Positions 35,448 to 59,648 of a stretch of 64,000 bases of DNA are shown piece after piece; within the stretch, counting starts at the first letter, position 1, and each line of letters begins with the position of its first letter. Source of the DNA: Lachnospiraceae bacterium C1.1 (GTDB lineage: Bacteria > Bacillota > Clostridia > Lachnospirales > Lachnospiraceae); the NCBI GenBank assembly GCA_030434875.1, contig JAUISW010000001.1, positions 1,065,501 to 1,129,500 of the forward strand, given 5' to 3'. A program made the position numbers and the translations under genes. Under the pieces are notes generated by a model that was given only the letters and a program-made list of their open reading frames with translations, did not search any database and was not told the origin of the DNA.

Positions 35448-37994
35448 TTACTTTTTGCTGCGTGCATTTGTCATTGACTCCAACATGGCCTGATAACGAT
35501 CCTGCTGTGAAGCTTTTATTGTCTCTTCAATATTCATGAATTTGGAGTATATGGCTTTGCCGGCTACGGGATAAAGCGTACATGAATTACCATTGGCTGA
35601 ATGAATTCCGGAAATTCTTTCGAGAATATTGTTTTTCGTTTTTTCAACCTCAATTTCATCAGTAAATTGAAAAACAATTATAAATTCATCACCTGTAAAT
35701 CTTCCGATTGTTGCCGAATTTCCAAATGACTTGATCAAGACGTTTGCCATTTTCTGAACAATAATCTTTGATATATTCTTTCCCAGATATTTTTTTACTT
35801 CATCAAAATTACTGACCTTTAATGAAATAATCGCAAAATCCTGCTCGTGGAATTCAAAGGCATCGCTGAATCTAAGTAATTCAAGCATCATACCTCTCAC
35901 GTTCAATAATCCGGTCAGATTATCAATAATATTAGCCTCTCTTTTCTTTTTCTCTTCATTAAGATCTGTAACATCCTTAAAATATCCAACCAGACCAACT
36001 ATAGAGCCATTTTTGTAAACAGGCATTTTACTGGCAATAATACTTCGCTCAATACCTCTGATTATACAATGTCCGGGAACTTCATGCGTTACAAAGCCCT
36101 CCTTGATCACTCTTTCTTCATCTTCTTTATAAGGCCCCGGCTCTACATGCCAGCCAACTTCCTCGTCATTCTTATTTAGGATGCGGTCAATATTGTCCAT
36201 ACCATAGTAATCAAGAAATGTTCTGTTTGCTCCGAGGAATTTTCTGTCTTTATCTTTCCAGAAGATTCCAATAGATGAGTTTTCAATAAGACTCTGCCAT
36301 AAGATACTATTGCTTATCTCGGAGGAATTTTCCAATTCCGATTTATCTTTATTCTGATTAAGCAATGATACAACATTTGAATCAGCATTTCTTAAAAGGA
36401 TCAAAATCTCATCTTTTCCCGCAATTGTTGCTATACAGATCTTCCATTGATACTCTCCTTTAATATCAATGACTCTGACGTATTTATTGAGAAAATTTCT
36501 ACCGCTATTATGAATTCGCGAACGTATATCCTTAAAATCCAAAAATTCTATAAGATCATGATAATCATTCGGATAAATCTGATTTTTTATAAAAGTATCT
36601 GTAAATTCTTCGATAGTGTCTATCGTTTTTACACTCGTATGCTGCAGACTGGCTCCGTTATTTGCAAGATAAGGAATCTCAACTATATTTTTTGCCAGAT
36701 CAAATATGTATACGCTATCATAAATAGAATAAATATTTCTTAAAAGAGAATCCAGTCTGTCATGTCTGCTTGCATCGCTCCTTGTAAGATTCTGGAAAGA
36801 AAAAAGAACGGCATATTTTGTCTCTCCATTGGCTATTAGCTGTGTTCTCAGGATAAAATACTGCCCGTTTTCAGCAAAAGTTATTTCTTCATGACCGGTA
36901 ACCCTGGTTTTGGCAAACAAAGTCGCAACTCTGTTGCCAACTATCAGATTCTTTTTTATAAATTCAATTATTTCTTCTTTTTGATATGCTAATCCTATGG
37001 TTTTAATTTCTGCCTTAAAAGCATCATTTTCATATAATATATCGAAGCCATGTTCGCTGATCTCTATGATTGTAAGCGGTATGGAATCAAGCTCTTTCAA
37101 GCCATAAGAATTATCATCCTTGTAAAATGTAAATGGAGCGGAACTTAATACATTTACATTACCAATCGAATCATAATATTTTCTTTCCCATAGCCCTTCT
37201 GACAATGAAGGATCATCAAGTAATTCTTTCAGTAGTTCATTGAAAGGTCTTGGTCTTGAAAACAAATATCCCTGAACTTTTTCACAGCCAATATATTTTA
37301 AAAATTCATACTGCTCTTCTGTTTCTACTCCTTCAGCCAGAGTTTTCATTCCTATATTTTTAGACATTTCCACAACAGCGCGTATTATAGCACGTGATCT
37401 GGGCCTTAGATCTGATAAAAACTTCATATCAATCTTTAAGGTATCAAAATTAAAGTCTTTTAAGGCGTTAAGTGAAGAATACCCATTTCCAAAATCATCC
37501 ATCCAAACCTGATAACCAGCACTCTTAAATTTATCAATTATAGCAATAACAAGCTGGTTATCAGCATTTATAGCTGTTTCAGTTATTTCAATATTAATAA
37601 GATCCTTTGGTATTGCATACTTATTTACAGCATCATCTACAGTTGAAAACATATCACAAGATTCAAAATCAAGTCTGGAGATATTAAAAGAAACAGGTAA
37701 GATCGGATGAGAATTGTTGATTATATAACGAAGATCATGACAGATTTCGTTGATAATATAACTATCCAATAAATGTATAAGGTTGTTATTCTCGAGCACA
37801 CCAATAAAAGAAGCCGGACTTAATAAACCTTTATCCGGATCCACCCATCTTGCCAGCGCTTCAAATCCGCAAAATTTTCTGGAAATTGTGCGTACAACAG
37901 GCTGATAATATACTTTTATATAATGATCGTTGAGTGCTTTGTCAAAATTCTCAAGTATGTATGAATCTTCAATTAAGCCATTGGCCATAACCAA
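35448..37994 (-). CDS. EAL-PAS-GGDEF cyclic-di-GMP signalling protein
   Basis: This 848-residue protein has an EAL phosphodiesterase domain first (residues about 10-250). All key elements are present: FEALARW, NIEITETAI, MDDFGNGYSSLNAL, LKIDMKFL, TLAEGVETEEQ and VQGYLFSRP. A long PAS-like middle follows (IFWKDKDRKFLGANRTFLDYYG near residue 580). The C-terminal diguanylate cyclase-type domain has DNLTGLLN but reads TGDEF in place of GGDEF. It is probably an active phosphodiesterase with a degenerate or regulatory cyclase domain. The EAL-first order is the reverse of the usual GGDEF-EAL tandem. No membrane segment is seen. Confidence 0.9.
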   Translation of the reverse strand: MVMANGLIEDSYILENFDKALNDHYIKVYYQPVVRTISRKFCGFEALARWVDPDKGLLSPASFIGVLENNNLIHLLDSYIINEICHDLRYIINNSHPILPVSFNISRLDFESCDMFSTVDDAVNKYAIPKDLINIEITETAINADNQLVIAIIDKFKSAGYQVWMDDFGNGYSSLNALKDFNFDTLKIDMKFLSDLRPRSRAIIRAVVEMSKNIGMKTLAEGVETEEQYEFLKYIGCEKVQGYLFSRPRPFNELLKELLDDPSLSEGLWERKYYDSIGNVNVLSSAPFTFYKDDNSYGLKELDSIPLTIIEISEHGFDILYENDAFKAEIKTIGLAYQKEEIIEFIKKNLIVGNRVATLFAKTRVTGHEEITFAENGQYFILRTQLIANGETKYAVLFSFQNLTRSDASRHDRLDSLLRNIYSIYDSVYIFDLAKNIVEIPYLANNGASLQHTSVKTIDTIEEFTDTFIKNQIYPNDYHDLIEFLDFKDIRSRIHNSGRNFLNKYVRVIDIKGEYQWKICIATIAGKDEILILLRNADSNVVSLLNQNKDKSELENSSEISNSILWQSLIENSSIGIFWKDKDRKFLGANRTFLDYYGMDNIDRILNKNDEEVGWHVEPGPYKEDEERVIKEGFVTHEVPGHCIIRGIERSIIASKMPVYKNGSIVGLVGYFKDVTDLNEEKKKREANIIDNLTGLLNVRGMMLELLRFSDAFEFHEQDFAIISLKVSNFDEVKKYLGKNISKIIVQKMANVLIKSFGNSATIGRFTGDEFIIVFQFTDEIEVEKTKNNILERISGIHSANGNSCTLYPVAGKAIYSKFMNIEETIKASQQDRYQAMLESMTNARSKK

Positions 37995-38357
37995 TCTCCT
38001 TGCAAATTATTGTTTAAATCGTAGCATAAATGATTGATTCTAACAATTATTTTTGTTAATGATTCAAAAAAAATACAAGATATTTCTTTCTGACTGCACT
38101 GTGAAACTGCAAATATTTATTTTATTACAAGCTGTGAAAATCCCGGTAAATATATATAACTATGATTATAAGATAAAAATTTATAAAAGTTTTCGAAAAT
38201 ACGCAAATAGTGTATACAATATTCGAAATTATATGGATTTTTTCTCTTATTTAGTATACAATAGATATAGATTATATAGTTTGAAACAAACATTCTTATA
38301 TAAATTTATAAAATATTGATCTGGCTGAATAAGCTTTTTATAGTAAAGGAGTATGTT
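37995..38357. other. AT-rich intergenic region between divergent genes
   Basis: This 363-base stretch is very AT-rich and contains no supported gene. It must hold the promoters of the EAL-PAS-GGDEF gene (leftward) and of the following hypothetical gene (rightward). I cannot place either with confidence. Confidence 0.5.
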
Positions 38358-39089
38358 ATGGATAATATTCAAATTAATAGCGTGACGAATACCACTGATT
38401 CTGCAACATTTCCTGCTTATTCACCTGTTGAAAAAATAAGCAGTAGTAATGATTCTTCTTCGTCAAAAATTACTGAGGCAATCACTAATAAAGAAAATAA
38501 TATCTCAAAAACAGAAACAACTGTTTCGGACATCATTGCTGAAAAAATAGAAGAAAATAAAGATAATAAAGATGATAAGCTATCTAATTTATCTGATAGA
38601 TCAGAAGATGGAGATACACTTGAAATAAGTCCGGAAGGCAGCAGTGATCTGAATGATGGTTATGTAGTACGGATCAAAATAAGCTCTGAGAGTTCGGATA
38701 ACAGTGAGACTCAAGCTTCAGAAGAAACCACTTCAGCGCTTGATAGTTTCGAATCCAGGCTTACCAGTTTTAAGGGAATAAGTAATCAGGAACTTAGACG
38801 GATGTACCTGAATGGAATAATAAGTCCTTATGATTACAACGAAGAAATGGATGCCAGAGGTGAGCGCGCTGCAGCGATAAGAGATAATTCAGTTAAGACA
38901 AGCCATACTATAACAGCAGTTGTCTCATCTTCCAATGAAATTTCAGAAACTGCCAACCAGATAAAGAGTGCTTATGGTGGTGAGGCAAAAAATTCAGAAA
39001 TTTCAACAGAGTTTATAAAAGCAATGGATTCAGTAGGAAAAACACACCAAAATGATATGGAATCCCAATTAAATATTGATATTGGATAA
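38358..39089 (+). CDS. Hypothetical acidic Ser/Glu-rich protein
   Basis: The 243-residue protein is rich in Ser, Glu, Asp and Asn, with low-complexity segments (KIEENKDNKDDKLSNLSDRSEDGDTLEISPEGSS is the region around residues 70-103, described here by position and composition only where longer). It has no signal peptide or membrane helix. A more ordered part lies near residues 140-185 (FESRLTSFKGISNQEL). The ATG follows AAAGGAG. I do not recognise the family. The DTLEIS motif occurs in some uncharacterised Lachnospiraceae proteins. It stands alone with its own terminator. Confidence 0.6.
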   Translation: MDNIQINSVTNTTDSATFPAYSPVEKISSSNDSSSSKITEAITNKENNISKTETTVSDIIAEKIEENKDNKDDKLSNLSDRSEDGDTLEISPEGSSDLNDGYVVRIKISSESSDNSETQASEETTSALDSFESRLTSFKGISNQELRRMYLNGIISPYDYNEEMDARGERAAAIRDNSVKTSHTITAVVSSSNEISETANQIKSAYGGEAKNSEISTEFIKAMDSVGKTHQNDMESQLNIDIG

Positions 39090-39097
39090 AAATAAGT

Positions 39098-39145
39098 AAG
39101 AGGAAGCTTTAATTTTTCATAATTTTTAATGCTTCCTCTTTTTTT
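39098..39145 (+). terminator. Intrinsic terminator
   Basis: AAGAGGAAGC pairs with GCTTCCTCTT over a 23-base loop and runs into a T tract. Confidence 0.85.
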
Positions 39146-39307
39146 ATAGACAGATAATTGCTGAGAAATTTTATTATATGGATGAAATTTAATAAAAATT
39201 TAAGAAATCTATTTAGAATATTGTCAAATTTTGCTATAATTAGATTATGAAAAAGGGAACGTCACTATTTATTTATGATAATAAATAAAGAAACGGGGGT
39301 GTTCTTA

Positions 39308-39778
39308 ATGCTTAAGATCATAAAATGTGCTAAATGCGGACACTGGCAGGAACTTGATGATGAACTTACTTGTCATGAATGCGACGCAGATTTTCATCAG
39401 GCAAACAGCTATTATACCGCCTCAAATAAGCAGGAAGAATTGGAAAACAGAAAGAAATTTGATCGACTTGGAGAAAATGAATTCAATGATGTAATGCATA
39501 ATCTCCAGGAACGTATTGATGAATATCAGTTTAAGACCTGTCCGCATTGCGGGACACAGGTTCTAAAAACTGAGATGAAATGCCAGCAATGCGGTCATAA
39601 ATTTAAAAATGCAGATGAATCTGTTGGCGGCGCCCAGCAGAGATTTAATATCATTGTTTCTGCAGCATGTATTGTTCTGATAATTACTCTTGCAATGTAT
39701 ATGGCAAAAAATTTTAACGAAAGTCTAGAAGAAATTAATAATCCTACTGTGGAATCTACTGAAACAGTTGACAGCTGA
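39308..39778 (+). CDS. Double zinc-ribbon protein with a C-terminal membrane helix
   Basis: The 156-residue protein has two CxxC pairs near the start (CAKCGHWQELDDELTCHECD) and two more in the middle (CPHCGTQVLKTEMKCQQCG), each forming a likely zinc ribbon. A single membrane helix (IVSAACIVLIITLAMYMA) lies near residue 130, followed by a short acidic tail outside. Such tail-anchored zinc-ribbon proteins are common and mostly uncharacterised. The ATG follows a GGGGGT site; an in-frame start 33 bases earlier is less likely. Confidence 0.7.
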   Translation: MLKIIKCAKCGHWQELDDELTCHECDADFHQANSYYTASNKQEELENRKKFDRLGENEFNDVMHNLQERIDEYQFKTCPHCGTQVLKTEMKCQQCGHKFKNADESVGGAQQRFNIIVSAACIVLIITLAMYMAKNFNESLEEINNPTVESTETVDS

Positions 39779-39816
39779 ATTTAACGCAATAAATGGCACA
39801 AACTGCCCTGCATAAT

Positions 39817-39860
39817 AAAAGCTCATCTTCCTCTACTATCATAGATGGAGATGAGCTTTT
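39817..39860. terminator. Bidirectional terminator between convergent genes
   Basis: A perfect 12 bp stem (AAAAGCTCATCT with AGATGAGCTTTT) has A/T runs on both sides and serves the zinc-ribbon gene and mazG. Confidence 0.85.
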
Positions 39861-39864
39861 ATTA

Positions 39865-40341
39865 TTAATTCTTAAATCCCTTGCGTATTTTTGCCTTTTC
39901 AATAAGCTCGGATGCTTCATTCATTGCATCTTCTAAATAAGCCTCTTCCCATTCACGTCCGGCTTTTTCTTCTTTCTTTATTGCTTTCCATGAATCATGC
40001 AATTCTGCTTCAGAGTCATATTTTACTCCGGAGAAAACATGAGGGTGTCTCCTGACCATTTTATCACTGACTGTTTTTGCAACATCATCAAAATTAAAAA
40101 GACCTTCTTCCTCTGCAATTACTGCATGTAACATTACTTGAAGAAGTAAATCTCCCAGTTCTTCCCTTAAATTTACAAAGTCGCCTGTCTTTTCAAGTAT
40201 ATTGATCCCGCCGATAACTTCCGCAGCTTCTTCTATGCATGCACCTTTGAGACTTGTATGAGTCTGCACTTTATCCCAGCTGCATCCGTTTTCACTTCTG
40301 AGCTTTTCAACAATTGTTTTAAGTCTTTCAATTTCTGTCAT
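39865..40341 (-). CDS. mazG: MazG-type nucleotide pyrophosphohydrolase
   Basis: This 158-residue enzyme hydrolyses nucleoside triphosphates to monophosphates and pyrophosphate, clearing abnormal nucleotides. It shows the MazG pattern LRSENGCSWDKVQTHTSL, EEAAEVIGGI and LREELGDLLLQVMLHA, with the acidic ExxE and ExxD metal ligands, then RRHPHVF. It is a single-domain form, about half the length of E. coli MazG. AAGGG lies nine bases before this ATG. Confidence 0.92.
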   Translation of the reverse strand: MTEIERLKTIVEKLRSENGCSWDKVQTHTSLKGACIEEAAEVIGGINILEKTGDFVNLREELGDLLLQVMLHAVIAEEEGLFNFDDVAKTVSDKMVRRHPHVFSGVKYDSEAELHDSWKAIKKEEKAGREWEEAYLEDAMNEASELIEKAKIRKGFKN

Positions 40342-51374: not shown

Positions 51375-52134
51375 TTATAATTCCTTCCAGATATCAAATA
51401 AACTAATCTGATTATCTATATATGACTCCATTTTGACATCATGTATGATATCTCCCTCTTCATAATCTCCGATCAAAAAAGGTGAATCAGGATCATGCAT
51501 TTTCATATTTCTCTTTACTGCATCTATATCATTATTTGCATAACAGTATCTGCATAAGTGTCCACAACTGTCATAAGCTCCGATATCTCCCGAAAGATAG
51601 CAGGCACATTCTTTTCTACTTGGCTTTTTATAGGGAACGATCAGCTTTTTGCCAATAGCCTTCTCATACGCCTCAATTGTCATACAGCCTCTGCAGTCTG
51701 CTCCATATTCTGCTAAAAACTGTCCCTCTCCGCAAGGTTTGACCGTCATTCCATATGAAGATGCAATCTTAATGATCTTCTTTCCTAAAAAGATCATATC
51801 CTGACCTGATACGGAACGGACTTCCGGAAAATTTCTTTTAACTTTTTCGTATAGATCAATAAAACTGATAACAACTGTCTGAACATATCCTTTAAGCGAT
51901 GATGCGATAGATTCAAAGGCTTTTAAATGGTAATCTACAGTATATCTGTCATTAATAAAGATCGGATCGTATCTCCAGCCTATGCAATTAATCCCTACTT
52001 TATTGGAAAGAAGCTTAAAATCCTCTATGATCTTGTGCTTATCAGGAACTCCGGGTTCTATATCCTTTCCATAAGGCGTGATAGTTACAAACCAATATTG
52101 TCCATAATCCTTAAGCAGATCCATATATTTAAAA
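51375..52134 (-). pseudogene. C-terminal part of a DUF1848 gene split by the lnu(C) element
   Basis: This piece begins YMDLLKDYGQYWFVTITPYGKD and runs through the cysteine-rich C-terminus (CRGCMTIEAYEKAIG, CACYLSGDIGAYDSCGHLCRYCYAN) to the stop. It lacks the first 64 or so residues, which lie at 53860-54052 beyond the inserted element. Excising 52135-53859 and one copy of the 8 bp duplication gives a single 314-residue frame. DUF1848 proteins are uncharacterised and may bind an iron-sulfur cluster through their cysteines. Confidence 0.92.
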
Positions 52135-52174
52135 GGCTATGTCACAACAAACAGTTGATAAATAGCCATTTTTA

Positions 52175-52199
52175 TAGGGGAGTATCAGAACTCCCCTAC
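52175..52199 (-). terminator. Terminator of lnu(C)
   Basis: TAGGGGAGT pairs with ACTCCCCTA over a six-base loop, 17 bases after the lnu(C) stop, and is followed by a T-rich tract on the minus strand. Confidence 0.85.
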
Positions 52200-52215
52200 A
52201 AACTGTTATTTGCAG

Positions 52216-52710
52216 TTATCTATACTCATTTGGAATTTCGATATGAAGTGTCTCACACAATAACTTCACATCATGTGCATCATTTTCATCAAACTCGTAT
52301 CCCAGATGGAACATTACTTGACTATATGGTTCAATACAGGAAACCTCTATTTCCTCAATTCTTCCTTTACCCGAAAAAGTTTCTACCGGAAAACAATCCC
52401 CATCATAAAGAATTTCACCTTCGTCCGTATATTCAAAACAATGCAAATCAATAATTCTGTTTTTCAAATCTTCCCATACAGTATGGTTCAATGTTGTATA
52501 TTCCATCTTAATCTCATAAAAGCCATTAGCTTTCATTATTTCTATAAAGTTCTGATAATCGTTCTTTTCTACAAAAATGTCAATATCATTATGGGCTCTT
52601 GACTGATATCCAAGAAGAGCATCTACACCCCAGCCACCATCAAGAAAGACTTTAATCTCCGCATCTATTGCAAATTGAAGAATCTGTTTTACATCTGTTA
52701 TATTGACCAT
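52216..52710 (-). CDS. lnu(C): Lincosamide nucleotidyltransferase Lnu(C)
   Basis: This 164-residue protein adenylylates lincosamides such as lincomycin and clindamycin and so inactivates them. It shows the nucleotidyltransferase core FLDGGWGVDALLGYQSRAHND (GG-W motif, then the Asp-x-Asp pair in HNDIDIFVE) and a C-terminal helical part. The length and whole sequence match my recollection of Lnu(C). It is the passenger gene of an IS1595-family element. GGAGATGATAAG precedes the ATG. It could instead be a close Lnu(C) homologue; a direct alignment would decide. Confidence 0.88.
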   Translation of the reverse strand: MVNITDVKQILQFAIDAEIKVFLDGGWGVDALLGYQSRAHNDIDIFVEKNDYQNFIEIMKANGFYEIKMEYTTLNHTVWEDLKNRIIDLHCFEYTDEGEILYDGDCFPVETFSGKGRIEEIEVSCIEPYSQVMFHLGYEFDENDAHDVKLLCETLHIEIPNEYR

Positions 52711-52733
52711 CTTATCATCTCCACAAATTCTAA

Positions 52734-53771
52734 TTAGGCGACCAGAGGAACTGCTGGTCTGTTTGATAAATCTCTGCATTTAGCAGTTTTCAATGTTGCC
52801 AAAACGAAAGTTAAGAAGATGTTCCTTTTCTCCATGTCGCTTTCTTTGGCGTAATTTACAAGGTTATTCCACACAAGATAGTTGTTCAGATACTTGGTAG
52901 AAACACCGTTAAAGCCACGCATAAACCTCTTTAGCTGGCTATGGTAGCTATTGATATGTTGGATATTATAAATGCCTTTCTTGGCTTTGCCAGTCTTTAA
53001 CTGCACAAGGTCAATGCCATTGGCATTTGTAAATCTCACATAGGAGTTCATCTTGTCCGTAACAAGAGTGGAATTGGTCTTAATCCTACCATCATAAATA
53101 TGATGTAAATCTCTTGTAGAAACTCTACCAGTATTCGTAATCTTGGAGATAGACAAGCCATTCCTATTAACCGCACAAGGAACACATACCTTTTCTTGGG
53201 ACAAGCCTCTGATATGTGTAGAATGACCACGCTTATGAGCCTTGCGTGGCATAGCAAATGTCTTACTCTTGCTATGATTGCCCTTGTACGAGATGGCGAA
53301 AAAAGTTTCGTCAGCCTCAATAATACCGTCAAGGGTAACATCGTCTGCCATATTCTGAAGTGCATCCAAAATCTTGTGTCTCCAAAGGAATGCGGTGTTT
53401 CTGTGAATCCCACAAGCAACAGCAGTCTTACGAATGGATAAGCCATTCATCATACAATCAATGTACTGCTCCCACACGGACAAGTCTTTTCTTGTACCAG
53501 ACACAATGGAGTTCGTAGCAATCACGAAGGACTTGCCACAATCCTTACATACATATCGCTGTGTGCCATCTTTACGATGACCATTGCGAACCACATGGAT
53601 ACAGCCACAAAGAGGGCATACACGACCATTTGCAAAGCGTTCCTTTGCTACGAAATCTTCAATATTCAAAGACTTTACAAAGGCAGGACTTAAAAGCATT
53701 GTTTTAAGGCTTTCCTGCTCTGCGACAGTCAACTTACCGATAATATCTAATGCGTCTTTGATAGTAGGCAT
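52734..53771 (-). CDS. IS1595-family transposase
   Basis: This 345-residue transposase has an N-terminal zinc ribbon (CPLCGCIHVVRNGHRKDGTQRY then CKDCGKSF), a helix-turn-helix (GLSIRKTAVACGIHRNTAFLWRHKI), and the ISXO2-like DDE domain. That domain has EADETFFAISYKGN for the first Asp and LVTDKMNSYV for the second. YHSQLKRFMRGFNGVSTKYLNNYLVW is near the third acidic site, which in this family can be Asn or His. The ATG at 53771 follows AAGGAGG by nine bases. It is intact and could move the element. Confidence 0.93.
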   Translation of the reverse strand: MPTIKDALDIIGKLTVAEQESLKTMLLSPAFVKSLNIEDFVAKERFANGRVCPLCGCIHVVRNGHRKDGTQRYVCKDCGKSFVIATNSIVSGTRKDLSVWEQYIDCMMNGLSIRKTAVACGIHRNTAFLWRHKILDALQNMADDVTLDGIIEADETFFAISYKGNHSKSKTFAMPRKAHKRGHSTHIRGLSQEKVCVPCAVNRNGLSISKITNTGRVSTRDLHHIYDGRIKTNSTLVTDKMNSYVRFTNANGIDLVQLKTGKAKKGIYNIQHINSYHSQLKRFMRGFNGVSTKYLNNYLVWNNLVNYAKESDMEKRNIFLTFVLATLKTAKCRDLSNRPAVPLVA

Positions 53772-53859
53772 ATCCAATTACCTCCTTCGGTGGTACTGTT
53801 TCTTACTATTATTATACGCTATTTCTCGTCAAAAACCAACCATTTGTTGTGACAGAGCC

Positions 53860-54052
53860 ATTTAAAAAACGGAGCCGGATTTTTTGAGCAAAAACCAATA
53901 ACATCTACCGTTTCAGGGCTAAGCCTATACCTGCTTACACTTTCATGATTAAAGGGATTGCGTACACATATTATTCCTTCTTTAAATCTATTAGCCAGCC
54001 AGTCCGGATAAAAGGCCGGAATATCGGTTCTCTGTCCCGTATTAATTATCAC
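53860..54052 (-). pseudogene. N-terminal part of the split DUF1848 gene
   Basis: This fragment reads IINTGQRTDIPAFYPDWLAN and on to NPAPFF, a typical DUF1848 start. It stops making sense at the IS1595 end (53859), where the frame continues into the element for 13 codons. The start codon is GTG and has no good ribosome site; the IS607 element nearby may have displaced the native control region. The rest of the gene lies at 51375-52126. Confidence 0.9.
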
Positions 54053-54080
54053 CTTACTACCGTTACTGAAAACTTATAAA

Positions 54081-54280
54081 AAGTTATAAACTTTTATGTT
54101 TCATTCCTACTTCATTGTGTCTGCTTTTGTGGTATTGTTACACACTACTTACATTTGATGTGACACTACCCTTTCGGGTATAACTTCGACAACGTAAATC
54201 ATAGATTTACTGTCTCAGTTATCCGTAGGCGTAAATTCCGAATTAACGCATCCGTACACATTTACATCCACGTTTAAGTG
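54081..54280 (-). ncRNA. Candidate omega/guide RNA region of the IS607 tnpB
   Basis: TnpB nucleases use an RNA transcribed from the 3' end of tnpB to the element end. This 200-base gene-free stretch lies in the right place and orientation. No fold has been computed, so extent and guide are unknown. Confidence 0.4.
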
Positions 54281-55516
54281 TTAAGATGCAAATTGTTCTC
54301 CATAAGCTTTTAGATTCAATGCAGCCTGAAAATCCCTGTCAATAGCATTCCCACATCTGCATTTATAAATCCTGTCAGATAATTTCAGGTCTTTTTTGAT
54401 GTTTCCACAACAGCTACAAAGTTTTGAGGATGGATAAAATCTATCAGCTACAATAAGTTGAATGCCCTTATCATTACATTTATATTCAAGCTGCTTTCTA
54501 AATTCAAAAAACCCCTGATTTTGAACTGCTTTGGATAAGTGTCTGTTCTTCATCATTCCACTAACATTCAGATCCTCGATACAGATAAATCTTGGTTTTC
54601 GATTTACTATCTCAGATGTGGTCTGATTCAGATAGTTCTTACGGATATTTGTTAATCTGTGATTTACTTTGAGTAAAAGTTTTTCATTTTTAACTATATT
54701 ATTCGTTTTGCAGTATTTTCCTTTCTTTTTATTCTTGTTACTAAGTTTCACAAATCCATTTTTTATATTTCTCTCATTGTTTTTATTTATAGTATCTTTG
54801 TTATTCATAAGATACTTACGAGACACGCTCCTCTGTAATCTGCGTTTGCGTCTCTCCAATTTTCTGACTTTAGCAGATTTGTTGATGTTCTTATACTTGT
54901 TAGTATCAGAACATATCGCTAAATCTTTAATTCCTAAGTCTATACCGATTCCATCATCAGATAACTTTTCCTTGCAATCTGGCAATTCCACACATACACT
55001 GATCCACCAGTTCAACCCATCAAAGGATATTCTTGGGTTCATATACTTTGTATCTGTTGGAATACGCCCATGCTCTGCAATCCTCACCCAATTAAGTTTT
55101 TGCTTGTTGGCTTTTTTACTTGAAGAAAAGCCTTCAAACTTGACATGGGTTTCGCTGAACTTAATCTTAATGTTGTCCTGATAGAATTTAGGCATGGATC
55201 TCTTTTTGGACTTAAACCTTGGAAATTCCTGTAAGCCTTTGAAAAAGTTCTTGTACGCAGTACAGGCATCTTTAATAGCCTGTTTGGTTACATTGTTTGA
55301 TATTTTAAGCAACCATACATATTCATCAGAATTTCTGAGTCTTGTAAATTCTTTCCTAAGCTCCGAATCTGATATAAACTTGCCACCTTTTTCGTAGTTG
55401 TCTCTTTCCCTGACTAAAGCCCAATTATAAGCAAACCTTGCAGCACCAGCATACTGAAACATCTTAGTGTTTTGCACGTTGTTTGGTACGAGCATTACTT
55501 TTATGGCTTTTACCAT
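54281..55516 (-). CDS. tnpB: TnpB RNA-guided nuclease of the IS607 element
   Basis: This 411-residue protein is a TnpB, a compact RNA-guided DNA nuclease and relative of Cas12. The RuvC residues are all present: Asp193 in GIGIDLGIKDLAI, Glu314 in FICIEDLNVSG and Asp395 in AIDRDFQAALN. Zinc-finger cysteines are in LCSCCGN and YKCRCGN. The start overlaps the tnpA end by 53 bases, and AGGAGG lies nine bases before its ATG. With all key residues kept it is probably active. Confidence 0.93.
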   Translation of the reverse strand: MVKAIKVMLVPNNVQNTKMFQYAGAARFAYNWALVRERDNYEKGGKFISDSELRKEFTRLRNSDEYVWLLKISNNVTKQAIKDACTAYKNFFKGLQEFPRFKSKKRSMPKFYQDNIKIKFSETHVKFEGFSSSKKANKQKLNWVRIAEHGRIPTDTKYMNPRISFDGLNWWISVCVELPDCKEKLSDDGIGIDLGIKDLAICSDTNKYKNINKSAKVRKLERRKRRLQRSVSRKYLMNNKDTINKNNERNIKNGFVKLSNKNKKKGKYCKTNNIVKNEKLLLKVNHRLTNIRKNYLNQTTSEIVNRKPRFICIEDLNVSGMMKNRHLSKAVQNQGFFEFRKQLEYKCNDKGIQLIVADRFYPSSKLCSCCGNIKKDLKLSDRIYKCRCGNAIDRDFQAALNLKAYGEQFAS

Positions 55517-56126
55517 TTGTTTCTTCCTCCTGTATCAGTTCTTCAACAAGTTTCTTAGCTTTATCAGCCCGTTTACCCTGTAATTTGCAACTGAACACCG
55601 TGATTATTTGTACTAAATCCTCAACAAGCTCCTGCTGTTCGGATTTTTCAGTATTATCAATTATCTCAATGTCACAGTTATAAAGCGAAGCCATATATTC
55701 CACTAACTCAAAACCAAATCGTAAAAGCCTGTCTTTATCCAAAACGACAACCTTTTCAACCTGATTCTGAGAAATCCGTTTAATCAGCTCCTGAAGTCCT
55801 TTTTTCTTGTAATTAATACCGGAACCAATATCACTTATTATCTCAAATGGTTGCCCTTTTGCTATGAGATATGTTTTTACATTATCAATCTGCCGTTCCA
55901 AATCATCTTTCTGCTTATTACTTGAAACACGACAATATCCTATTGTAATGCGATTTTTGGATTTTACATTCATTACTTGGTTAAGTTGTTCATCGGAATA
56001 ATATCTGTATCCACTTGTTGTAGTATGATGTGGATGAAGTTTTCCATTGGCATCCCAATTGCGTAATGTCTGTGCAGATACGCCTAATATTTTCGAAAAT
56101 TCATGTATAGAATAATATTTACTCAA
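55464..56126 (-). CDS. tnpA: IS607-family serine recombinase TnpA
   Basis: This 220-residue transposase has an N-terminal MerR-like helix-turn-helix (YSIHEFSKILGVSAQTLRNWDANGKLHPH) and a serine recombinase domain with the catalytic Ser in IGYCRVSSNKQKDDLERQ, then VVVLDKDRLLRFGFELVEY. The start is TTG at 56126, with AAAGGAG eight bases before it. The longer frame to 56180 has no ribosome site. It cuts and joins the element ends. Confidence 0.92.
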   Translation of the reverse strand: MSKYYSIHEFSKILGVSAQTLRNWDANGKLHPHHTTTSGYRYYSDEQLNQVMNVKSKNRITIGYCRVSSNKQKDDLERQIDNVKTYLIAKGQPFEIISDIGSGINYKKKGLQELIKRISQNQVEKVVVLDKDRLLRFGFELVEYMASLYNCDIEIIDNTEKSEQQELVEDLVQIITVFSCKLQGKRADKAKKLVEELIQEEETNGKSHKSNARTKQRAKH

Positions 56127-56315
56127 AGTATCAACTCCTTTCAATATTATCCTATACCAATAACTTATAAAACACAACATTTGTTTACATAGTCTTATAA
56201 GTTTAGCTCAACAGTTGTCACCCTCTTTTCTAATTCCCGACATAGATATATTCGGTAACTATTAAACCGGATACTATCATATAAATCATAAAATATTCTT
56301 GTATTTTTTGCATTA

Positions 56316-56374: not shown

Positions 56375-56718
56375 TTAGACTTTGTAAACCTGCTTCCCAT
56401 CTACAAATGTTGCAAGGCATTTTGCATTTTCAACCTCTTCAAATTCATCATTTAAGAAGTCTTTATCAAATACTGCTATATTGGCCAATTTGCCGATTTC
56501 AAGAGATCACATCCGGTTCTCCTCGTGCCAACTGTATGCCACGTTAGTGGTTATTGATTTTAAGGTATCAAGCCGGCTGATACACTGATCTGCATGTCTT
56601 AGCATTTTCTCGCCATTGGACGGTAAGTAACCAAGCGCACCAAGACATTTTCCACCCACATGATTCCGCATACTGCCATAATATTGTACTCAGCTATACG
56701 TCTGATTTCTCTGGGTGT
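56375..56718 (-). pseudogene. Decayed amidohydrolase (YtcJ type)
   Basis: Fragments of a YtcJ-like amidohydrolase read leftward. TPREIRRIAEYNIMAV is followed by a frame change and a deletion, then GYLPSNGEKMLRHADQ and NVAYSWHEENRM. An in-frame TGA comes next, then the C-terminus SLEIGKLANIAVFDKDFLND and VDGKQVYKV. The metal-binding N-terminal part is gone. No function remains. Confidence 0.85.
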
Positions 56719-58038: not shown

Positions 58039-59541
58039 TCAAAATTTCAATTTGCCATTAAGTTGGAAACTTAGTCTTTTACTGCTTTGTACTGATATAC
58101 TTGAGCGGATACTTTCAGCATATTTGCCATATTCGATCAGTGATTTACTCCTGTCAGTTCGCTCTGAATTTAGCATTGCCCGTGCACTAAGAACTACTTC
58201 TTCGGCTCCTGCAGCCATGGGGATTTCTTTCCTCTGAAACCTTGCCAGTTCCAGCATATCTCCACCATTATAATAATACTCACGCAAGCGAGCCATCTTG
58301 GATCCGCCTAACCTGCACCATCCCATCGGCAACGTACTCATCCTCTTGGACAGTACATGGCAGACATGTCCCTCTGCACTGCAGGCTACAACTCCTTCTG
58401 ATTTTTTTAACCGGTACTTTGCCGCAGTCCAGTTTGAAGAAATATATGACGCTGCAGAATCAATCCTCTGAACTACTGCTTCCGAAGTGGTACAGTTTTT
58501 AAGCTTTTCTACTACCTCAAAGAAATCAGATTTTTTTCCATCCCGTATGGCTGCCATTACTTCTGATCTTGCATCATCTTCAGAATCTTTTGTATGCTGA
58601 ATAAGTTTGCTAACGTACTTTGATATATGGAATTCATCAAGAACAAATGTAACATCCGCAAGCCCTCTGTAACCTGACTTGATCCATGTTCCTCCATCAG
58701 AGTTGACATATATTTTCTTTATTGCACTTGTATCATACTTGTTTTCTATGTAATCAAATACCTCTTTCCAGAGCTGCTTATTATCCTCTTCACTGCCACG
58801 ACAGAAATAGTGGGTATTTATTAAATGATTCCGTTTGCTTTTAGGACTAACAGGCTCTATACCCTCAAATACATATATGATCTTATTGATTGCACCGTTC
58901 AGTTTTCTTCCAACAGAATTATATTTCAGGTCTCCCCGACTGGACTGGAACTGAAGATGATAATGGTCTTCGTCTGCATCAATATAGAGGTATTCTACTA
59001 TACGCTTTTGCTCCGGTATCTGGAAGTTTTTCGGAAAGCGTGTACTGTGCAGTATATTTTTTACTGCAGCTTTTGTAACACCTTCTCTGGCAGTTGCTTC
59101 CTCACCTGCTTTTTGATACGAGGTGAGCGCTGCTTCTTTGTATATTTTTGCTGTGACATCTTCTGTCATGGCTTGATTTGGACTCAGCCCGAGAACCTTA
59201 TCCAAAAGATAGCATTCCAGATATTTCCCGTTTTCATCTGTTTCAAATTTTGATGTATAAAGGGTCTTGTTTACAATGACCTCTCCTAATGACGTAAGGA
59301 TCTTTTTGGAATCTCCTTTATGCTCAACATACCAGTTGTTTTTGCGCTCAGGCATATCCTTAATCAGCTGGTTCATTTCCTGCAGAGTATCCTGTATGAA
59401 CCGTCTTCCAAGCTCCTGGACTTCTTCCTGCACGTTTAATACAAAGTATGCCAGGTCAGTTGTATCTTTGTAAAGATTGAGTTTGGTGTTGAAAAGATTT
59501 TTGATGCAGTCATACATAAAATAGCGTATAATGTTTTCCAT
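58039..59541 (-). CDS. ISLre2-family transposase
   Basis: This 500-residue protein belongs to the ISLre2 (UPF0236) transposase family. Key segments are TSLGEVIVNKTLYTSKFE near residue 80, LYIDADEDHYHLQFQ near 190 (an acidic site), IYVNSDGGTWIKSGY near 277, VLDEFHISKYVSKLI and CSAEGHVCHVLSKRMSTLPMGW near the end. Length and frame are normal. The ATG at 59541 follows AAGGAGG by about eight bases. It appears intact. Confidence 0.92.
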   Translation of the reverse strand: MENIIRYFMYDCIKNLFNTKLNLYKDTTDLAYFVLNVQEEVQELGRRFIQDTLQEMNQLIKDMPERKNNWYVEHKGDSKKILTSLGEVIVNKTLYTSKFETDENGKYLECYLLDKVLGLSPNQAMTEDVTAKIYKEAALTSYQKAGEEATAREGVTKAAVKNILHSTRFPKNFQIPEQKRIVEYLYIDADEDHYHLQFQSSRGDLKYNSVGRKLNGAINKIIYVFEGIEPVSPKSKRNHLINTHYFCRGSEEDNKQLWKEVFDYIENKYDTSAIKKIYVNSDGGTWIKSGYRGLADVTFVLDEFHISKYVSKLIQHTKDSEDDARSEVMAAIRDGKKSDFFEVVEKLKNCTTSEAVVQRIDSAASYISSNWTAAKYRLKKSEGVVACSAEGHVCHVLSKRMSTLPMGWCRLGGSKMARLREYYYNGGDMLELARFQRKEIPMAAGAEEVVLSARAMLNSERTDRSKSLIEYGKYAESIRSSISVQSSKRLSFQLNGKLKF

Positions 59542-59648
59542 AAAGAGAACATCCTCCTTAATGATATTTGTGTCACAAGCTAATATCATATCACACGTCA
59601 GGATGTTCTTTTTTCTTTTCTATTCAATTTTCCGAGGGAAATTTTACG

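Follow-up and report, generated by a model that had tools for sequence, protein, structure and literature searches.

How did a lincosamide resistance gene come to lie in the chromosome of a Lachnospiraceae-type anaerobe, and how recently? The question is raised by a locus of Lachnospiraceae bacterium C1.1 (contig JAUISW010000001.1), within a stretch of 64,000 nucleotides hereafter called the window. An earlier note, made from the letters of the window alone, had described a complete IS1595-family unit carrying lnu(C) and proposed that it had arrived recently. We followed up this description by comparing the unit, its insertion site and its host with profile models, with genomes, plasmids and phages, and with published systems.

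Boundaries and genes of the element

The limits given in the earlier note proved exact to the base. The 8-bp sequence ATTTAAAA lies on both flanks as a target-site duplication (52127-52134 on the left, 53860-53867 on the right), enclosing an element of 1,725 bp at positions 52135-53859. Its ends match, as had been claimed: the terminal inverted repeat on the lnu(C) side, GGCTATGTCACAACAAACAGTTG (52135-52157, plus strand), and the one on the tnpA side, GGCTCTGTCACAACAAATGGTTG (53837-53859, read on the minus strand), are alike at 20 of 23 positions.

Both genes of the element lie on the minus strand. The transposase gene tnpA (52734-53771, with its stop codon ending at 52734) has an open frame of 345 aa from ATG and scores 196.5 bits against NF033547, the IS1595 model, for which the cut-off is 75; the zinc-binding domain NF050000, PF12762 and PF12760 are also matched. 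The family and the intactness of the transposase were therefore rightly named. In an alignment of six transposases (A1), D239, N274 and K281 are invariant and D154 is found in five of the six, which we take to be the D-D-N-K catalytic type seen in part of the IS1595 family. The passenger gene (52216-52710) has an open frame of 164 aa, matches PF10706 with 87.2 bits and scores 380.8 bits against NF000141 (cut-off 300) over model positions 1-164 of 164, while staying below the cut-off on all five other Lnu models listed. It is hence identified as lnu(C), a lincosamide nucleotidyltransferase gene, over its full length and above the curated cut-off, and the low identity that the earlier note had named as contrary evidence was not found. 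Only 23 bases separate the tnpA stop from lnu(C), and the two genes are probably co-transcribed. A region with a 13-bp hairpin (52160-52215, minus strand) separates the stop codon of lnu(C) from the neighbouring inverted repeat and folds with -21.3 kcal/mol (z -4.94). We rejected it as a standard intrinsic terminator because no U-run follows the hairpin in either direction by eye; it is also absent from the terminator scan.

Relation to MTnSag1 and other known elements

With a probability of about 0.97, we read the element as a complete copy of MTnSag1, also called tISSag10, that is, an IS1595-family insertion sequence with lnu(C) as its single passenger. MTnSag1 was described in Streptococcus agalactiae as an IS1595 DDE transposase and lnu(C) between 25-bp inverted repeats and 8-bp repeats; it is reported to enter A+T-rich targets, to be mobilised by Tn916 and to form a circular intermediate, having no relaxase and an origin of transfer inside the resistance gene (PMC5704250). 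The window element shares with it the IS1595-family transposase, lnu(C), the 8-bp duplication, A+T-rich targets and the lack of a relaxase, and also resembles it in length (1.7 kb) and in the size of the inverted repeats, about 25 bp (PMC5704250); the host and the insertion site differ. The identity was set by this published description together with annotated plasmid copies, of which the ten fullest bear the labels 'ISSag10 family transposase' and lnu(C) and are 99.4-99.8% identical to the window element.

Other relatives share parts of this organization. An element of the same name, ISSag10-lnu(C), is present in the lincomycin-resistant strain Streptococcus pluranimalium TH11417, where the duplication is TTCTTATT; that copy lies inside a Tn1207.1-like transposon in a prophage (PMC6233522), whereas the window copy stands alone in a chromosomal DUF1848 gene. 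tISCpe8 of Clostridium perfringens is likewise an IS1595-family element with one lincosamide nucleotidyltransferase gene, but it carries lnu(P) and measures 2.0 kb (PMC5704250); the Lnu(P) model gives the window protein 194.8 bits, against a cut-off of 300. Elements of ISCco2 type and ISSag10 type on Campylobacter plasmids encode TnpA proteins 98.3% and 99.7% identical to that of the window, yet differ in the genes after tnpA (a P-loop kinase in L010 and a GNAT acetyltransferase in L007). Finally, Lnu(C) of S. salivarius is identical to the window protein, and is 98.17% identical to the resistance database reference. The system as such is already known: published work covers the element with its passenger gene, its mobilisation, its sharing in the gut and lnuC in Lachnospiraceae.

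Host and insertion site

The host 16S was compared with 20 genomes, the host's among them; matches came from 16, and several of these were short. The gene is 88% identical to that of Lachnoclostridium sp. MSJ-17 (positions 1-1528) and 90% to that of Clostridium vitabionis (546-1528), falling to 82% for Angelakisella and 76-78% for Collinsella, Fusobacterium and Streptococcus. Against expectation, a genome named Faecalicatena absiana gave only 78% (411-1528). Another link to the order comes from G598, a genome of the host's order: its transposase on contig C24 (124413-125447) is the same place as locus L023 of Anaerotignum lactatifermentans. We take Anaerotignum to belong to the order Lachnospirales. 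From these comparisons we conclude that the host order is Lachnospirales. The Lachnospiraceae-type host of the earlier note thus stands at the order level; at the family level, Lachnospiraceae is likely.

The element splits a host DUF1848 gene, and its two genes read in the direction of that gene. The C-terminal piece (51375-52124, minus strand) covers PF08902 profile positions 69-262 of 262 and the N-terminal piece (53879-54052, minus strand) positions 1-57. Used as a query, the C-terminal piece found matches in 12 of 48 same-genus genomes (own genome included), one of them G1226, which is of the same species and holds the gene uninterrupted as an open frame of 319 aa. This locus, L125, aligns with the window at 99.0% over 2,257 bp up to position 52134 and at 98.0% over 202 bp from position 53860; it has a single ATTTAAAA and lacks the element, and is therefore an empty site. 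A search of the G1226 genome for the element found none; as this assembly is split into 540 contigs with a completeness of 86%, the evidence lies in the site itself. The host's own genome (4,229,373 bases in 3 contigs) has one copy of the element and no second copy was found in it; likewise, no full-length copy was found in the 36 other same-genus genomes, many of them incomplete. The empty site in the same species, the single copy in the own genome and the lack of full-length copies in the same-genus genomes together show that the insertion is recent, in agreement with the recent arrival proposed at the outset.

Another same-genus genome, G021, has a solo 23-base end (L003:1501-1523) identical to the tnpA-side inverted repeat, and none of the frames listed around it is transposase-like.

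Additional mobile DNA lies close by in the window. An IS607-family element (54062-56218, ends placed within about 5 bases) encodes a serine transposase (55464-56180) and TnpB (54281-55516). It is also absent from L125, where the match jumps from 54061 to 56219, so that by this comparison it, too, inserted recently, at a distance of 200 bp from the lnu(C) element. An ISLre2-family transposase (58039-59589; NF033529, 209.1 bits against a cut-off of 200) marks a third mobile element within 6 kb. Conversely, about 153 bases of the same-species genome (L125:2876-3028) are missing from the window at 56648. Elsewhere in the window, the sign of the GC skew changes from plus to minus at about 36000-40000, resembling a replication terminus or an inversion point.

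Distribution among bacteria, plasmids and phages

Comparison of 67 loci yielded 41 full-length copies: the window copy itself, three at 100% identity in Acetitomaculum ruminis DSM 5522 and 37 at 99.2-99.9%. Each of the 40 other copies thus diverges from the window at between 0 and about 14 positions, mismatches and gaps taken together. All three A. ruminis copies lie at contig ends, which makes the real copy number in that genome uncertain. In a transposase scan with one genome per species, 37 of 57 loci were full-length lnu(C) elements, by record title mostly from gut anaerobes; the titles include Selenomonas, Veillonella, Collinsella, Fusobacterium gastrosuis, Streptococcus, Enterococcus cecorum, Anaerostipes, Flavonifractor and uncultured gut bacteria. 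The earlier note had called such elements known from streptococci. This is true of MTnSag1 in S. agalactiae, but the element is not essentially streptococcal, its full-length copies being found mostly in gut anaerobes.

Matches were seen in 14 of 72,556 plasmid records, ten of which hold at least 80% of the query, including five from Glaesserella parasuis and two from Cetobacterium; one of the near-identical copies is on a Gram-negative plasmid. A set of 50,697 phage records gave four matches, with 99% of the query present in two Streptococcus phages and 69% in two satellite phages. No match was returned by megablast from 20,395 E. coli records. Within samples of the host's own groups the element is rare. 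Of 392 genomes from the order, 2 have a near-identical transposase and five more have one at 39-45%; among 391 from the class, the own genome alone has a near-identical one (two others at 44%). In the phylum sample full-length DNA was present in 2 of 398 genomes and some match in 14; G324, G154 and G416 hold pieces of the ends of 74-361 bases.

The coding content is highly uniform. In 51 full-length copies, a count that includes the same place fetched more than once, both frames keep their length; TnpA is identical to that of the window in 41, and Lnu(C) is identical in 36, the variants being L155F (10 copies), N50I (4) and M59I (1).

Several loci place the element in a shared context. In different species, L041, L042, L043, L044, L045 and L046 have it at the same site within 3.0-5.8 kb at 99.6-100% identity. 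The two frames before the element in L041 are by eye nucleoside phosphorylase-like and nucleotidyltransferase-like, resembling genes 941-944 of PMC10782964. In L009, the 110-kb record of the Streptococcus phage phi-SgaBSJ27_rum (Streptococcus gallolyticus, pig), the element lies beside tet(O). Sharing of ISSag10 with lnuC by Gram-positive and Gram-negative bacteria of the chicken and pig gut has been reported (PMC10782964), as has lnuC in a pig Lachnospiraceae isolate (PMC12175345); the spread through commensals suggested in the earlier note was thus already in print.

Target choice

An exact 8-bp duplication was found in 34 of the 41 full-length copies. Of the other seven, five (L014, L018, L021, L026 and L052) stop at a contig edge or close to one, and in L031 and L012 none was seen. 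Across the 34 distinct sites, taken as raw shares with no background model, A or T makes up 100% at duplication positions 1-2, 97% at positions 7-8 and 68-85% at positions 3-6, and 94-97% at the bases just outside. This A+T-rich preference agrees with the published one (PMC5704250).

A possible cargo slot after tnpA

Four loci (L007, L010, L048 and L060) have tnpA end DNA 95-100% identical to that of the window, but a different gene next. The cargo is a GNAT acetyltransferase in L007 and a P-loop kinase in L010; that of L048 has a lipoprotein-like start, no Pfam family and only NCBIfam matches under the cut-offs, and that of L060 is a 67-aa protein with no Pfam family. All five cargoes, lnu(C) included, start 23-26 bases past the tnpA stop, behind GAATTTGTGGAGG or a close variant. 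On the right side, 68-79 bases of the window end, hairpin included, are retained in L007, L060, L050 and L114 at 90-97% identity. In L048 the retained part is 48 bases long and has no hairpin (z -0.02), and the right end of L010 was not found. In L061 and L056, whose similarity is much lower, the corresponding place is occupied by different hairpins (z -4.0 and -7.0). L060 is without most of tnpA and L048 carries a frame break, so that some copies would be unable to move on their own.

Four cargoes other than lnu(C) at a near-constant tnpA end suggest a cargo slot. The loci are few and not a random sample, and the count leaves out L049, L051, L054, L056, L061 and L062, with transposases 35-82% identical. 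Passenger genes known in such elements include lnu(P) and, in a relative, cat (PMC5704250). A more specific model, to which we give even odds, is that in ISSag10-type elements the constant tnpA end would supply the ribosome-binding site of the next gene, the hairpin by the right inverted repeat would close the slot, and single genes, resistance genes among them, would be exchanged as units between fixed left and right parts.

Two further candidates were not counted. In L114 no plus-strand frame of 60 aa is listed between tnpA and the right end, and one frame there is full of stops. L050 is homologous to the window element only as far as position 771, which lies inside tnpA. Where the window element has the final third of tnpA and then lnu(C), this related element from an uncultured Clostridium (L050:2913-5077) has an APH(2'')-If/Ih gene (658.4 bits, cut-off 600); its duplication is TACTAAAA.

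Movement, function and alternative readings

The literature and the locus together allow a mechanism to be proposed. Replicative excision by the DDE-type transposase would yield a circular, double-stranded copy, which would then integrate elsewhere, both steps being drawn from the literature; the sequence itself shows a base-exact insertion, with its 8-bp duplication, at an A+T-rich spot of the DUF1848 gene. As the literature has it, an element with no relaxase of its own would pass from cell to cell when mobilised by a conjugative element, for example Tn916. The solved structures nearest to Lnu(C) are named as lincosamide resistance proteins (E 1.3e-14), and we infer that the protein adenylylates lincomycin, by which the host would be protected. 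In S. pluranimalium TH11417, which has lnu(C) together with mef(A) and msr(D), the MIC of lincomycin is 64 ug/mL and that of clindamycin 0.25 ug/mL (PMC6233522). Clindamycin may therefore fail to reveal the lnu(C) phenotype.

Could the element instead be an old resident of the lineage, inherited vertically? Its inverted repeats do differ at 3 of 23 positions, though both end sequences recur in other copies, and its absence from the genus counts for little because many genus genomes are incomplete. However, the 36 other same-genus genomes offer no more than the solo end of G021, the same species has an empty site (barring a perfect excision of the element from G1226), and the 40 other copies show so few differences while the 16S of the host is 76-78% identical to that of some of their hosts; we consider long vertical residence very improbable. 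Still less credible is an assembly artefact or contamination with DNA of another organism. Misassembly is conceivable since the same DNA is found in many gut bacteria, but the element is internal to a contig exceeding 3.18 Mb, the assembly consists of 3 contigs with contamination put at 1.43%, both flanks of the element run into DNA 98-99% identical in the same-species genome, and the target duplication falls exactly at the junctions.

A third alternative is that the element is real while its lnu(C) is silent in this host and confers no resistance. We regard such silence as unlikely, though less so than the two preceding alternatives. A promoter scan yielded 7 sites where shuffled sequences averaged 5.8, so that no promoter stands out, and lnu(C) has a G+C content of 0.335, compared with 0.380 in the window. 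On the other hand, read-through from the host gene is possible, the element being inserted with its genes in the same orientation, the length of both frames and most of the TnpA and Lnu(C) sequences are conserved among the full-length copies, and a streptococcus with lnu(C) reaches the lincomycin MIC given above (PMC6233522).

Overall, near-unchanged DNA of this element circulates between distant bacteria, and the window adds a base-exact, recent insertion in a commensal-type anaerobe. In surveillance, flanking sequence is needed before lnu(C) detected in a gut metagenome can be attributed to a host. Should the cargo slot prove real, elements of this 1.7-kb size would offer a simple system for asking how insertion sequences acquire and exchange genes.
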